A stretch of DNA of 64,000 bases, taken from positions 124,001-188,000 of the forward strand of contig JAIVFH010000013.1 of the NCBI GenBank assembly GCA_025765595.1, given 5' to 3'. This document shows positions 41,760 to 51,444 of the stretch, in pieces. The notes below the pieces were generated by a model. That model worked only from the letters and a program-made list of their open reading frames with translations, was not told the DNA's origin and did no database searches. The first letter of the stretch is position 1, and the number at the start of each line of letters is the position of its first letter. The position numbers were made by a program, and so were the translations under genes. The stretch is from Obelidium mucronatum. Its lineage: Eukaryota; Chytridiomycota; Chytridiomycetes; Chytridiales; Chytriomycetaceae.

Positions 41760-43635
41760 ATGACAACCTCGACCCTTCCTCGCGTCTTGACAATTGCGGG
41801 TTCTGACTCCGGAGGTGGTGCCGGAATCCAAGCCGACCTTAAAACCTTTACCTCGATTGGAACATATGGAACTTCGGTGCATTACAGGCCCTGACTGCTC
41901 AAAACACAATTGGAGTACAGGGAATCCACCCTTGCCCACCTGAATTCGTTAGCACAGCAGCTTGATTCAGTTCTGGCAGACATTGGAACAGACGCTATTA
42001 AGACGGGGATGCTCTTTAACGCTGCCATGATCAATGTTGTTGTCGCAAAGATCCAGGAGTTTAACTTGACCAAATTCGTACTTGACCCTGTCATGATTGC
42101 AACCAGCGGAGACCGTTTGCTCGCTGAAGATGCTGTCGCTGCCATCACGGACCAGTTGTTGCCGTTGGCATTGGTTGTCACTCCGAATATTCCTGAAGCT
42201 CTCGTGCTGTGCAAAGCACTCCAAAAAGGTTATTCGGGTGTCATTGAAACTTTGGAAGACATGCATGCTGCTGCCAGAGTACTTCATGCAGCCGGGGTCA
42301 AAAATGTGTTGATCAAGGGTGGGCATCTTCCCCTTTCTCAGCCTCCTCGTGTAGCGGAGGGTGTCCAGAGTGTCATGATTGCTCCCAATGTGAAGAGAGA
42401 CAATGGTGAACACGTCAAATATTGCGTAGATGTTTTGTTTACTGGCGATGAGTTGATCGAGTTTTGGAAGGAATATGTTCCAACCAAAAACACTCACGGA
42501 ACTGGATGTACCTTGTCAGCGGCTATTGCTGCTCACCTGGCCTCAGGGAAATCTGGTACTTTGGTTTTAATTTTTCTGTTTTTCTGTTTTTCAAACCACT
42601 ACTGATGAGAATTATATAAGTTGTGCAATCCGTTCAAGAAGGACTGCTGTTTGTCACAAATGCGATTAGCACTTCTCTCAGCATCGGAGCCGGGCATGGA
42701 CCTTTGAACCATGTTTACTCCATTGTTCCAACGAAACCAGCTATGACAAAGTATGAATCTTAAGATGCATGCATCAGAGTTTAACAATATGTTTTTGAAA
42801 AATAGGGAAACTTTTATTCAACACCTGAAAGACTCGTGCAAAACTGATTGGGACGAATACATCAACCACGAGTTCGTCCGTGGACTTGCCGATGGATCCC
42901 TGAATCCAGAGTCATTCAAGCATTACATTCGTCAAGATTACATCTACTTGTTGCATTATGCTCGCGCCTATGCCTTGGCGGCTTTCAAGTCGAATCGTTT
43001 CGAAGACATTGTCGCAGCTTCAGGGGTTGCTTTGCATATCGCACAGGAGAGCCAACTTCACGTCAAGGTATTACTCTCAGTGAAAGCATATTTTTTATTG
43101 GTTGTGCTAAGATTATGTCATTTAAGTACTGCGAGTCGTGGGGTATTTCTTTGGAAGAACTCGAACGCACCAAAGAAGCAACTGCCAACTTGTCTTACAC
43201 TCGCTACTTTTTGGAAAAGGGATTAAGTGGTGATCTTTTGGATTTGTACATTGCGATGGCTCCTTGTTTGATTGGATATGGGGAGATTGGACTCAAACTT
43301 GCAAATGACCCAAACACCAAGAGAGGTACCAATTCAGTAATTCTTTTGGGGGTCTTCTCTCATACTTCCTAACATTTATTTCAATAAGAGGGCAACTTGT
43401 ACTGGGAATGGATTAGTAACTATGGAAAAGAGGACTTCCAAAGCGCTGTTGCTCTTGGAGAAGGTTTGCACTAGTTCTTCTATTGTTGGAGTAAGACTCA
43501 ATTTGCCACTCGATAGACCTTCTTTTCCGTCTGTACACAGAAATGGTTCCCTCATCCAACGCGAACCGTCTGCAAGAGCTATGCGACGTATTCAGGCAAG
43601 CCACTATTCTTGAAGTCAAATTCTGGGACAGTTGA
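41760..43635 (+). CDS. THI20: THI20-type HMP kinase / TenA fusion
   Basis: Bifunctional thiamine enzyme. The ThiD half phosphorylates hydroxymethylpyrimidine and its monophosphate; the TenA half (thiaminase II) salvages pyrimidine. Exons: 41760..42555, 42621..42750, 42806..43067, 43127..43325, 43389..43463, 43541..43635; about 518 residues. Marks are [55 protein letters not shown], then TenA motifs [29 protein letters not shown] and [10 protein letters not shown] segment of about 70 nt (41878-41950) coding [12 protein letters not shown] lies in another frame, bounded by two compensating indels with an in-frame TGA at 41892, so sequence errors are likely. A TPP aptamer follows the stop codon. 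Confidence 0.9.
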
Positions 43636-43765: not shown

Positions 43766-43865
43766 AAGCAAAATTACGGGAGCCATTGCTGTTTTTATTT
43801 GGCTGAGAACATTAACCGTTTGGACCGGATCATTGGTAATTCTTGCGTCGGGCACGTTTTTGCTT
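43766..43865 (+). promoter_or_regulatory. TPP riboswitch aptamer in the THI20 3' UTR
   Basis: It starts 131 nt after the THI20 stop, on the sense strand. P1 is AAGCAAAA (43766..43773) with TTTTGCTT (43858..43865); P2 is CGG (43777) with CCG (43816); P3 is GCCA (43782) with TGGC (43800). The HMP-binding CTGAGA is at 43803..43808, P4 is CCG (43825) with CGG (43849), and the pyrophosphate-side GGTAATTC loop and GCG follow. P5 is weak here. AATAAA lies at 43871..43876, 6 nt past P1. The same signature downstream of THI6 supports the call. A role in 3'-end choice or mRNA stability is inferred from position. Confidence 0.82.
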
Positions 43866-43899
43866 GCATTAATAAACAAGGAGGACTTTGATGTTATCA

Positions 43900-48367: not shown

Positions 48368-50129
48368 ATGCACAAAACGACAGTCACAAAGACCACCACC
48401 ACCACCACGACTTACTCTGGCGCATCGAACTCACCCAAAAAGAGTCTCAATCTTGCTGTTTACGTCGTTATCGATACGGCTGTGCTTCCAGCTACAGCGG
48501 ATGTCCGCTGCTATCGCTCGAGCCTCTTTGCAAGGCGGAGCAACAATTCTGCAACTGAGAGCAAAGAGTTTGGAAACCAAGCCGTTCATCGAATTGGCTG
48601 AAAAGATTAGAAATGAAGCAAGAAAATTCGGCGTTACTTTTGTTGTTAATGACCGAGTCGATGTTGCTTTGGCTGTTGACGCTGATGGAGTTCACTTGGG
48701 CCAGGTTTGAATATTCCTATACACAAAGCCCACGCAATTTCCTTTACTCCTCTGACAAAAGAAGAACCACAGGATGATATGCCCCTTGTCACAGCCCGAG
48801 CGCTCTTGGGTCCAACCAAGATTATTGGAATCACATGCGCGACATCCGCCCAAGTCATCGAAGCATGCAGCAGCCATCAAGCAGACTACCTTGGAACATG
48901 CGCAGTCTTTCCAACCACCACGAAATCCTATGATTCAGATTTTGTCCCCCTTGGTACAAACGGGTTACGCGAGCTGCTGGCGATTTCAACGCTTCCTGTG
49001 GTTGCGATTGGTGGGATCAATGAATCGAATGTGGAAACTCTGATTCAAGAATCGAGACATGTGGATGGGTCTGTTGTTGCGGGTTGTGCGGTGGTGTCGG
49101 CGGTTATTTGTGCAACCAACCCAGAACTCGCTACTCGCGCTCTGGCTGCCAAAATCACTCCTATCGTGTCAAAACTTCCCGCCATAACGCTCCAACTCAA
49201 CTCACGCTCCCCGCGTGTTCAAACCTTAGTCAACCAAATCGCAAACGCGCTCGCTTCTATCCGCAGAACAACGCCTCTTGTCCATTCCATCACCAACTAT
49301 GTAGTCATGAACGATAACGCGAATATCATCCTCGCTATTGGTGGATCCCCCATCATGGCACACAGTATCGATGAAGCAGCCGACATTGTCAGCTTCTGTG
49401 GATCTTTAGTTCTCAACATTGGGACACTATCCAACCACTGGATCCAAGCCATGCACATTGCTGGAAAGAAGGCAAACGAAATTGGGATCCCTGTGGTTTT
49501 AGATCCTGTTGGTGCAGGAGCTACCCCACTTCGTCAAAAGACTTGCACAGACCTTGCAACATTGGTTCACGCCGATATTATCAAAGGGAACGCGGGAGAG
49601 ATTTCGTTCCTTGCGGGTGCTTTAGCGGGGCATAGTGGTGGGGCTCAGTCTCGCGGTGTGGATAGCGATGGTAGTGTTTCAGAGCCGTCGCGTATTGTTC
49701 GCTCATTGGCGGGTAAAATCGGGTCAGTGATTGCAATGTCTGGGCCTGTTGATTATATTGCGGATCGCGAAGGAAAGGATGTTGTTACCATTCAAAACGG
49801 CAATGAGTGGTTGGGCAAGATTACTGGGACTGGTTGTGACACAACAACAATGGTGGCTGCTTTTGCCGCTGCCTTGGCTGCAGAGCTGGCTGGTGGTGAA
49901 AAATCTGCAGCTCGCTGGACTTCTCTTTCTGGTGAAGACGGAGGATTTGATCCTTACCTGGTTGCTGCTGTTGGTGGAATTTTGTGTATGTGTATTGCAG
50001 CTGAACAAGCCGTTGCTCAGCCAGGTGTAGTGAAAGGGGCCCATGAGCTTTAAGACGGCATTGTTTGATGCCGTCGCTAATTTGACGCCTGAAATGGTTC
50101 AGCGCCATGCTCGTATCGATTTAGCTTGA
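48368..50129 (+). CDS. THI6: THI6-type thiamine-phosphate synthase / hydroxyethylthiazole kinase
   Basis: Bifunctional last-step thiamine enzyme. The ThiE half couples HMP-PP with thiazole phosphate; the ThiM half phosphorylates hydroxyethylthiazole. Two exons, 48368..48704 and 48773..50129, joined as GVHLGQ|DDMPLVTAR. ThiE: YVVIDT, GGATILQLRAKS, NDRVDVALAV. ThiM: SITNYVVMNDNANIILAIGG, PVVLDPVGAGAT, GNAGEI, ITGTGCDTT. Two single extra bases interrupt the frame, one near 48500-48510 after TAVLPATAD and one near 50035-50045, after which FKTALFDAVANLTPEMVQR runs to a stop at 50129. Both sites lie in conserved sequence, so error is likely. About 563 residues. A TPP aptamer follows in the 3' UTR. 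Confidence 0.92.
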
Positions 50130-50175
50130 CCGCTGTTTTTCGATTTCTATTCTCTTTGTTTGAAGGTTTCGGATT

Positions 50176-50266
50176 GTTTATTTGCGGGTGCTATCTTATT
50201 TGGCTGAGATTTTATGAACCGTTAGGACCGGACTACATGGTAATTCATGCGTCGGGAAAAATAAAC
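50176..50266 (+). promoter_or_regulatory. TPP riboswitch aptamer in the THI6 3' UTR, P1 holds AATAAA
   Basis: Begins 46 nt after the THI6 stop, sense strand. P1 pairs GTTTATTT (50176..50183) with AAATAAAC (50259..50266), a perfect 8-bp stem whose 3' strand contains AATAAA (50260..50265). P2 is CGG (50185) with CCG (50219); P3 is GCTA (50190) with TGGC (50201). CTGAGA is at 50204..50209, P4 is CCG (50228) with CGG (50253), and P5 is CATG (50236) with CATG (50246) closing a GTAATT loop; GCG and GGGA follow. A GT-rich stretch (TGTGTGGTTGGG) starts just downstream, as expected for a cleavage/polyadenylation site. TPP stabilises P1 in known aptamers, so the signal would be hidden when thiamine is plentiful. 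That mechanism is inference. Confidence 0.87.
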
Positions 50267-50417
50267 TATTTGTGTGGTTGGGCCAAAACATTCATGTTTC
50301 AGATGTGTTCGCCATTCACTACAACTAAAGGATTTGTCAGGATGAAACGAGATCCGTGAATCTGTGGCGCAAAATTTGTTTCAACAAAGTACAAACATGA
50401 AACGTAATCTCAACGGG

Positions 50418-50424
50418 TATAAAA
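50418..50424 (+). promoter_or_regulatory. TATA box of the surface-protein gene
   Basis: TATAAAA lies 64 nt before the ATG at 50488, in a short non-coding gap. Confidence 0.5.
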
Positions 50425-50487: not shown

Positions 50488-51177
50488 ATGTCTCTTGGAA
50501 ACGCCACTATTACTCTCCCAGTCTTGAACTGTGTCGGTGATGCCATCAAGACAGTTTCTGCTACCTGTGGTGTCAACTTCACAAAACCAACTGAAACTGC
50601 TGACTGCTACTGTTCCAGCACCAGCCTGACTGCCGTCAAAAACGCACTCACAGTCTGCGCCGCCGCTGCAAAGTCATGAAGAAGCCGTTGCCAGCGCCGT
50701 AGCCTATGGAACCTTATTCACAACGTCTTGTGAATCCCACACTGTCAAGGACAGCGACTGCCGCACAAAGTTCGCGTCTACTTACGCTGCCTTGCTTCCT
50801 GGCCTCTTGACTGGAATTACTTCTGGAACTACTGCCGGTCTTGCTGCTGCTGTTTGTGGTGGCGACAAGCAAAAGGCGGCCAACGACTTTTTGAAGACTT
50901 GTGCCAAGTCCTCCATCTCGATTGACACCAACTGCGCCGCTGGTAACACCACCACCACCACCACTACCACCACTACGACGACGACTACCACCACTACTGC
51001 CACAAAAACCACTACTACTGCCAGCAACACTTCAGCTACCTACCTACGCAGTAGCCACTACTTTGAAGGCAACCTACTACTACAGGATACACTGCTGCTA
51101 CATCTCTTTACTCTGGTGCAGTAACCAGTGTCTTCAGTTTCGCAGTCCTTGCAATCGCTGCATCCCTTGCATTCTAA
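50488..51177 (+). CDS. Cys- and Thr-rich GPI-type surface protein, frameshifted
   Basis: No known family. From the ATG at 50488: a Cys-spaced domain (CVGDAIKTVSATCGVNF, DCYCSSTSL, then SCESHTVKDSDC and TCAKSSISIDTNC), a pure Thr stalk from about 50949, and a hydrophobic C-terminus (VFSFAVLAIAASLAF) ending at 51177 that looks like a GPI-attachment signal. Three single extra bases (near 50672, 51045 and 51085) must be skipped to read it through. A classical N-terminal signal peptide is not evident, so the start may be wrong or an upstream exon missing. Likely a cell-surface or zoospore-coat protein. Confidence 0.6.
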
Positions 51178-51444
51178 TTCAGCATGTTTTCGCTGAAAAT
51201 TCTTAAACCTGCACTATCGGTTTATTTCAATAAAAAAAAGTTGTTATTCTCAAAAAGATGTTTTACTTCGCCACATACGTACGGTTGCGATTTCTTTGTA
51301 AGTTTTGATGAACGTGTAATGCATGGCTGTAACACCGACGGCAGCACCAATATTGCACTACTACAACAACACATCAATTTTATACTATAAATATTCAAAT
51401 AATCATAAAATGGAAAATTCCTTCCAGGTCACTTTAAAGAAAAG

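Follow-up and report, generated by a model that had tools for sequence, protein, structure and literature searches.

In the 3′ UTR of Obelidium mucronatum THI6, a TPP-type aptamer lies over a likely poly(A) signal, at positions 50176-50266 on the plus strand of the window (the whole 64-kb stretch of DNA that was analysed). TPP is predicted to hide the AATAAA hexamer of this signal and to lower the amount of THI6 mRNA, a reading to which we give a probability of about 0.5. The aptamer match in the 3′ UTR was confirmed by a search with the Rfam model RF00059, and the element is treated here as a predicted riboswitch. At least three further genes of the same genome carry an aptamer of this family behind their stop codons.

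THI6 (thiamine-phosphate synthase / hydroxyethylthiazole kinase; Pfam TMP-TENI and HK) occupied 48368..50129 (+), with an intron at 48705-48772 and a TGA stop codon at 50127-50129; the intron and the start were read by eye. The best protein match was from O. mucronatum, a chytrid (Chytriomycetaceae), with 100% identity across 94% of the query. The reading frame had a single break, in a G run at 50036-50039, and the annotated O. mucronatum protein (P0001) spans this break and shares the stop codon. The annotated model omits about 30 nt at the G run, losing residues that are kept by the relatives P0002-P0004. Behind the stop codon, the 3′ UTR begins with 46 nt (50130..50175, +) that are U-rich and hold no AATAAA. 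The aptamer begins at the end of this stretch, and the original prediction had given the same distance.

The aptamer matched RF00059 with 50.8 bits (E 9.4e-8 in a search over the 48.3-Mb genome) and aligned with model positions 1-105, which is the full length of the model. The score is slightly below the curated gathering cut-off of 54.3 bits, and a default Rfam scan of the window listed only a tRNA because the aptamer fell under that cut-off. The original prediction had named five helices, the CTGAGA motif, the TAAT loop and GCG..GGGA, and all of them, including P2, P3, P4 and P5, were present in the RF00059 alignment. It had also described a perfect 8-bp P1 that buries AATAAA, and this too was borne out: 8 of 8 pairs form between GTTTATTT (50176-50183, +) and AAATAAAC (50259-50266, +), and the predicted poly(A) signal AATAAA (50260-50265, +) is wholly within the 3′ strand of the helix. 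The next AATAAA on the same strand is at 51229, 969 nt further on. The THI6 aptamer thus resembles the RF00059 TPP riboswitch in its CTGAGA and GCG motifs, its TAAT loop, its helices P1-P5 and its association with a thiamine gene, but differs from it in its position behind the gene and in its score under the gathering cut-off.

Two properties of the THI6 element carry little weight. The P1 helix by itself is weak evidence for an aptamer, and a helix of the same length was found in 865 of 20000 shuffled flanks. Folded in isolation, the element closed P1, P2, P4 and P5, without a gain in stability over its shuffles (z -1.2). Two further aptamers likewise showed no extra stability, which makes three of the four described below (z -1.2, 0.4 and -0.6), and isolated-fold stability was left out of the evidence for the aptamers. 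A GT-rich element right behind AATAAA had also been pointed out. The 30 nt in question (50266..50295, +) do consist of 60% G+T, but this is not exceptional when compared with 15 control AATAAA sites, where the mean was 47% and the range 30-67%.

Searched genome-wide, RF00059 returned four clear matches (E 8.0e-10, 9.4e-8, 1.4e-4 and 2.5e-4), and the next match was at E 6.0. This fifth match, obtained in a search at E <= 10, scored 19.1 bits and was on contig C50. There are at least four aptamers, a lower bound because 49 of the 1532 first-look candidates were scored. All four were on the same strand as a thiamine-type gene and behind its stop codon, 46-130 nt away, and none of the four was ahead of a thiamine-type gene. 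The hosts are THI6, THI20, an MFS transporter gene and a gene for a DUR31-like symporter. In the UQ_con search, the score patterns within the contig pairs C74/C352, C12/C257, C101/C303 and C57/C266 were almost alike, which suggests haplotype duplicates or recent copies in the assembly.

THI20 (HMP-P kinase ThiD fused to TenA; Pfam Phos_pyr_kin and TENA_THI-4) is in the same window, at 41760..43635 (+). Its TENA_THI-4 match extends to the last residue, and the stop codon is at 43633-43635. The frame is broken in the assembly near 41870-41940. The aptamer in its 3′ UTR (43766..43865, +; 37.9 bits, E 1.4e-4 genome-wide) begins 130 nt past the stop codon, has AAGCAAAA/TTTTGCTT as its P1 and carries GGGC in place of GGGA. 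An AATAAA follows the P1 helix at 43871..43876 (+), and its predicted partner, once the aptamer has formed, is a U-rich tract directly upstream of P1.

The third aptamer, on contig C24, was found 129 nt behind the stop codon of the MFS transporter gene (Pfam Sugar_tr and MFS_1), which is divergent from a second copy of THI6. The coordinates of this locus are C24:330703-330813 (L005, minus strand) and L005 6412-8124 (+). In Rhizoclosmatium sp. JEL0117, which provided the best match to the MFS transporter outside Obelidium, relatives of the transporter and of THI6 have adjacent locus tags, so the pair seems to be kept. Because of its divergent arrangement with the second THI6 and the adjacency of the relatives in Rhizoclosmatium, the transporter is a candidate importer of thiamine or of a thiamine precursor. 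In an isolated fold of the MFS aptamer (L001 1507-1606, minus strand), the 5′ strand of P1 paired behind P2 and AATAAA was left open, a possible anti-P1 helix.

The fourth aptamer, on contig C11, was found 105 nt behind the stop codon of the symporter gene. The symporter protein itself had no Pfam match over the cut-off; a homologue has the PF00474 (SSF) domain, and a relative bears the name “Urea active transporter”. Protein searches with the host genes also brought up homologues in Rhizoclosmatium, Siphonaria, Podochytrium, Chytriomyces and Entophlyctis. The symporter appears DUR31-like, a label given from resemblance and not from a tree. A link of both transporters to thiamine is suggested by the second THI6 beside the MFS gene and by the resemblance of the symporter to DUR31. 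The annotated proteins of the MFS transporter and the symporter (P0138 and P0121) are equal in length to our models (453 and 536 aa), and this agreement fixes both stop codons. The P3 stem of the symporter aptamer has a pyrimidine-rich insertion of about 90 nt, read by eye at about L006 5505-5597 (+). The insertion ends in TTTCCTAG/G, which resembles a 3′ splice site, and an intron may split the aptamer.

Counted from the last base of P1, the first AATAAA is at -6 nt in THI6, -1 nt in the MFS gene, +6 nt in THI20 and +37 nt in the symporter gene. The hexamer is fully inside P1 in THI6 and overlaps it by 2 nt in the MFS gene; it is outside P1 in THI20 and the symporter gene. Burial is complete in THI6, predicted in THI20 (via the U-rich tract), partial in the MFS gene and absent in the symporter gene. 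Three of the four hexamers fall within -8..+6, an outcome with a probability of 6e-5 at the local AATAAA rate, for an interval that was picked post hoc. The interpretation that TPP binding would hide the poly(A) signal was upheld in part: AATAAA is in the P1 helix of THI6 and all four aptamers are behind stop codons, but full burial was found in THI6 alone. Since this is so, strict, direct masking is no rule across the four genes, and the graded offsets also argue against strict burial as what they share. A TPP-folded aptamer beside the poly(A) signal is the more likely shared principle.

The mechanism that we infer, beyond the presence of the aptamer and of AATAAA in its P1, would work as follows. 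With TPP scarce, P1 would be open, AATAAA would be read, and THI6 mRNA would be cut, polyadenylated and stable. With TPP plentiful, P1 would close and cleavage at the AATAAA site would fail; the read-through transcripts would be degraded and THI6 mRNA would fall. In THI20 a helix outside P1 would close over AAUAAA. More generally, the same step might be exerted from close by in the MFS, THI20 and symporter genes (-1, +6 and +37), with partial or no direct pairing, and proximity or some other route may apply to the two transporters. The expected outcome is feedback repression of salvage and uptake genes, and a lower mRNA level when TPP is plentiful has the sign that fits such repression.

Folding predictions were made in five sequence contexts per gene, with P2-P5 (the aptamer core) held formed and no constraint placed on P1. 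In THI6, the mean pairing of AATAAA rose from 0.12-0.31 in the free state to 0.62-0.95 with the core forced, in five out of five contexts, and P1 pairing with the core forced was 0.38-0.89. In THI20 the corresponding values were 0.21-0.87 and 0.92-0.96, again in five out of five contexts. In the MFS gene, AATAAA pairing increased in the two contexts that extended 70 nt downstream (from 0.02 to 0.21 and from 0.16 to 0.53), there was no clear rise in the three that extended 25 nt, and P1 was mostly open even with the core forced (0.01-0.42). Pairing of the symporter AATAAA was unchanged in the two contexts that reached it. Forming the core cost 3.5-9.1 kcal/mol over the four genes, which the binding energy of TPP could cover.

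When the innermost three pairs of P1 were enforced as well, the THI6 AATAAA was fully paired in six out of six contexts, two of its bases being fixed by construction. Under the same constraint, the MFS hexamer had its AA paired, plus part of its AAA across a U.U mismatch. Pairing in the free state varied with the context. In other contexts the free-state pairing of the THI6 AATAAA was 0.48 and 0.76, and the mean over 15 control AATAAA sites was 0.49. The THI6 site is thus no less paired than the controls, and its predicted “open” state is not robust. The folding models have the THI6 AATAAA hidden once the aptamer closes, and they do not indicate an unusually open free state.

Whether the hexamer acts as a poly(A) signal bears on the reading that the aptamer affects mRNA stability, export or termination and leaves the poly(A) signal untouched, or that AATAAA has no such role and overlaps an A+T-rich P1 by coincidence. 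A shuffle test on the first 200 nt at each of 48 gene ends, with three aptamer genes dropped, showed the hexamer to be enriched about twofold (16 occurrences vs 7.5 expected). Its reverse complement TTTATT was equally enriched at the same gene ends (19 vs 9.6 expected). A count of all hexamers over 51 gene ends gave 20 AATAAA vs 23 of the reverse complement, and 36 stricter gene ends gave 15 vs 16. These control ends were defined by long open frames instead of by the annotation, and some will be wrong. Given enrichment on both strands, the counts do not prove AATAAA to be the poly(A) signal, and we regard its use as such in O. mucronatum as plausible and predicted.

The lack of strand specificity speaks for another action of the aptamer or a coincidental overlap, as do the differing offsets (-6 to +37) and the symporter gene, where direct pairing is missing. 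An A+T-rich P1 can also hold AATAAA by chance: at the local rate, the probability that one or more of four helices bury it fully is about 0.014. However, the first AATAAA of each of the four genes comes after the aptamer core and is unique within 320 nt of the stop codon (THI20 has a second at 380), whereas 33 of the 48 control genes had no AATAAA within 300 nt and 15 had one. We consider an action on stability, export or termination, or a coincidental overlap, to be rather unlikely.

An aptamer behind the stop codon could also act through splicing, as in plant THIC, where TPP would alter the use of a splice site within or close to the aptamer and so remove or keep the poly(A) signal. Plant THIC (PMC10226581) likewise has its aptamer in the 3′ UTR, and TPP would lower its expression via 3′-end formation. 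As described in that source, its poly(A) site is in a 3′-UTR intron that is spliced out, whereas in O. mucronatum the AATAAA lies either within P1 or past the aptamer, with no conspicuous intron signal. Splice sites were scanned over the first 260 nt after each stop codon, with a model trained on 10 introns from these genes. The best hypothetical intron in the THI6 3′ UTR has its donor GTAATT in loop L5 and its acceptor 201 nt past the stop codon, and it would remove AATAAA. Its score of 12.7 is within the range of the 10 introns (11.4-16.6), but equally high scores were reached by 7 of 48 control 3′ flanks for THI6, 30 of 48 for THI20, 48 of 48 for the MFS gene and 29 of 48 for the symporter gene. 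The AGGG acceptor that plants and algae have in P2, as given in PMC9544697, is missing from all four P2 stems. A plant-type layout, with a poly(A) signal between stop codon and aptamer, was rejected: in none of the four genes did an AATAAA fall between stop codon and P1, and among five variant hexamers tried there was one ATTAAA, in THI20. Splicing of the plant kind is an unlikely explanation.

The aptamers might also be relics without a regulatory role, as was concluded for diatom THIC. Conserved 3′-UTR aptamers that give no thiamine response are known from a diatom (PMC9544697). Two of the four O. mucronatum aptamers score just 37-39 bits, and the THI20 P1 is no better than shuffles. A P1 of matching length was obtained in 865 (THI6), 3154 (THI20), 394 (MFS) and 2 (symporter) of 20000 shuffles, the THI20 helix falling outside the offsets that this test covers, so that P1 is well supported for the symporter alone. 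Against this, CTGAGA, GCG and the TAAT loop are kept in all four divergent copies, all of which are able to pair up a P1 of 7-9 bp, each from a sequence of its own. Motifs that are kept, with a P1 formed from different sequences, suggest selection on structure, and loss of function in all of these aptamers seems quite improbable to us.

That the aptamers belong to the 5′ regions of downstream genes is very improbable. In favour of it, THI6 and the symporter gene are each followed by a gene on their own strand. No frame behind the THI20 aptamer (four of the six of at least 100 aa being on the minus strand) has a Pfam match over the cut-off that could name a neighbour. Against it, all four genes ahead of the aptamers are of thiamine type, and the symporter gene is followed by one with an F-box domain and no link to thiamine. 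At THI6, a TATAAA (50418..50423, +), a candidate promoter element, separates the aptamer from the next frame (ATG at 50488, read by eye), which speaks against a place in the 5′ UTR of that gene. A 5′-UTR role is ruled out for the MFS aptamer, since the downstream neighbour, an SPT8-like gene, is convergent, and it is unlikely for the THI6, THI20 and symporter aptamers.

The preferred reading, in which a TPP-folded aptamer acts on the poly(A) signal, differs in several ways from the systems on record. According to PMC9544697, alternative splicing is the route taken by previously characterised eukaryotic TPP riboswitches. The original prediction had placed fungal TPP riboswitches in 5′ regions and had reserved 3′-UTR aptamers for plant THIC. 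This was too narrow. All putative diatom TPP aptamers are reported from 3′ UTRs (PMC9544697), prasinophytes have 3′-UTR TPP aptamers (PMC4260697), and a fungal survey lists a 3′-UTR match at eIF5B of Postia placenta that its own structure check did not validate (PMC5882874). The Postia host is not a thiamine gene, unlike the hosts in O. mucronatum. The fungal types I-IV of the same survey have the same aptamer and similar targets, among them a urea-type transporter, but are described there in 5′ UTRs or introns. The 5′ or intronic splicing type (I-III) was considered for O. mucronatum and rejected, all four aptamers being behind a stop codon. For 156 medically relevant fungi, a 2024 survey likewise reports aptamers mostly in 5′ UTRs, sugar-transporter genes included (PMC11683625). 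The Candida DUR31 riboswitch (PMC5997356) also targets a transporter of the sodium-solute-symporter type, to which our symporter is likened by resemblance; it is described in an intron near the 5′ end, where it controls splicing, whereas the O. mucronatum symporter aptamer is behind the stop codon. The words chytrid, Batrachochytrium and Spizellomyces are absent from the main text of PMC5882874. We found no literature report of a chytrid TPP riboswitch, in a search that did not cover Moldovan et al. 2018 or the supplements of the surveys.

Direct masking had been put forward as a new route, and this held in part. The natural fungal set appears to be new, but an overlap of P1 with a poly(A) signal has already been proposed for diatom THIC and has been built synthetically. 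In THIC of Phaeodactylum, P1 overlaps with AACAAA, the predicted poly(A) site, and alternative polyadenylation was proposed; the 3′ RACE reported in the same source showed no substantive difference (PMC9544697). Diatom THIC resembles the O. mucronatum case in its 3′-UTR position, its A-rich P1 and the predicted poly(A) signal that overlaps P1. It differs in kingdom and gene and in that source gave no thiamine response, while O. mucronatum has a canonical AATAAA fully within an 8-bp P1. The synthetic switches of Sporing et al. 2020 (PMC10353319) place AAUAAA in the P1 of a 3′-UTR aptamer so that the ligand hides it, as would be the case in THI6. Those described there were designed, respond to guanine or tetracycline and were used in HeLa cells; the O. 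mucronatum sequence is natural. What appears to be new is a natural fungal set of 3′-UTR aptamers that includes one textbook case of AATAAA in P1, and with it a presumed TPP-dependent control of 3′-end formation. The broader proposal is that chytrids moved their entire TPP riboswitch set behind the genes and use a natural, splicing-free switch on the poly(A) signal to block 3′-end formation. We offer it tentatively, at somewhat less than even odds.

The thiamine pathway of O. mucronatum gives these genes a setting. NMT1/THI5 (PF09084) had no match in the O. mucronatum genome, whereas 12 out of 14 control genomes had one. The Thi4 model (PF01946) was matched in part four times, at 24-31 bits and over 37-53 of its 235 positions, and two of these matches were over the cut-off; the four look like FAD-binding folds and not like Thi4. 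With no THI5 and only partial Thi4 matches, the switched genes are probably salvage and uptake genes, in an assembly that may be incomplete, and O. mucronatum probably depends on thiamine precursors from outside.

If the preferred reading is true, a natural switch that acts straight on a poly(A) signal would be an added mechanism for eukaryotic TPP riboswitches. Evolution would then have reached what synthetic biologists built, and the engineered poly(A)-signal riboswitches would have a natural equivalent in THI6. A single genome with four such genes, at graded AATAAA distances, would make a clean system in which to relate RNA structure to 3′-end formation. With THI5 and a full THI4 seemingly missing, the switch would have control over the salvage and uptake of the vitamin, in a fungus that probably relies on outside precursors.
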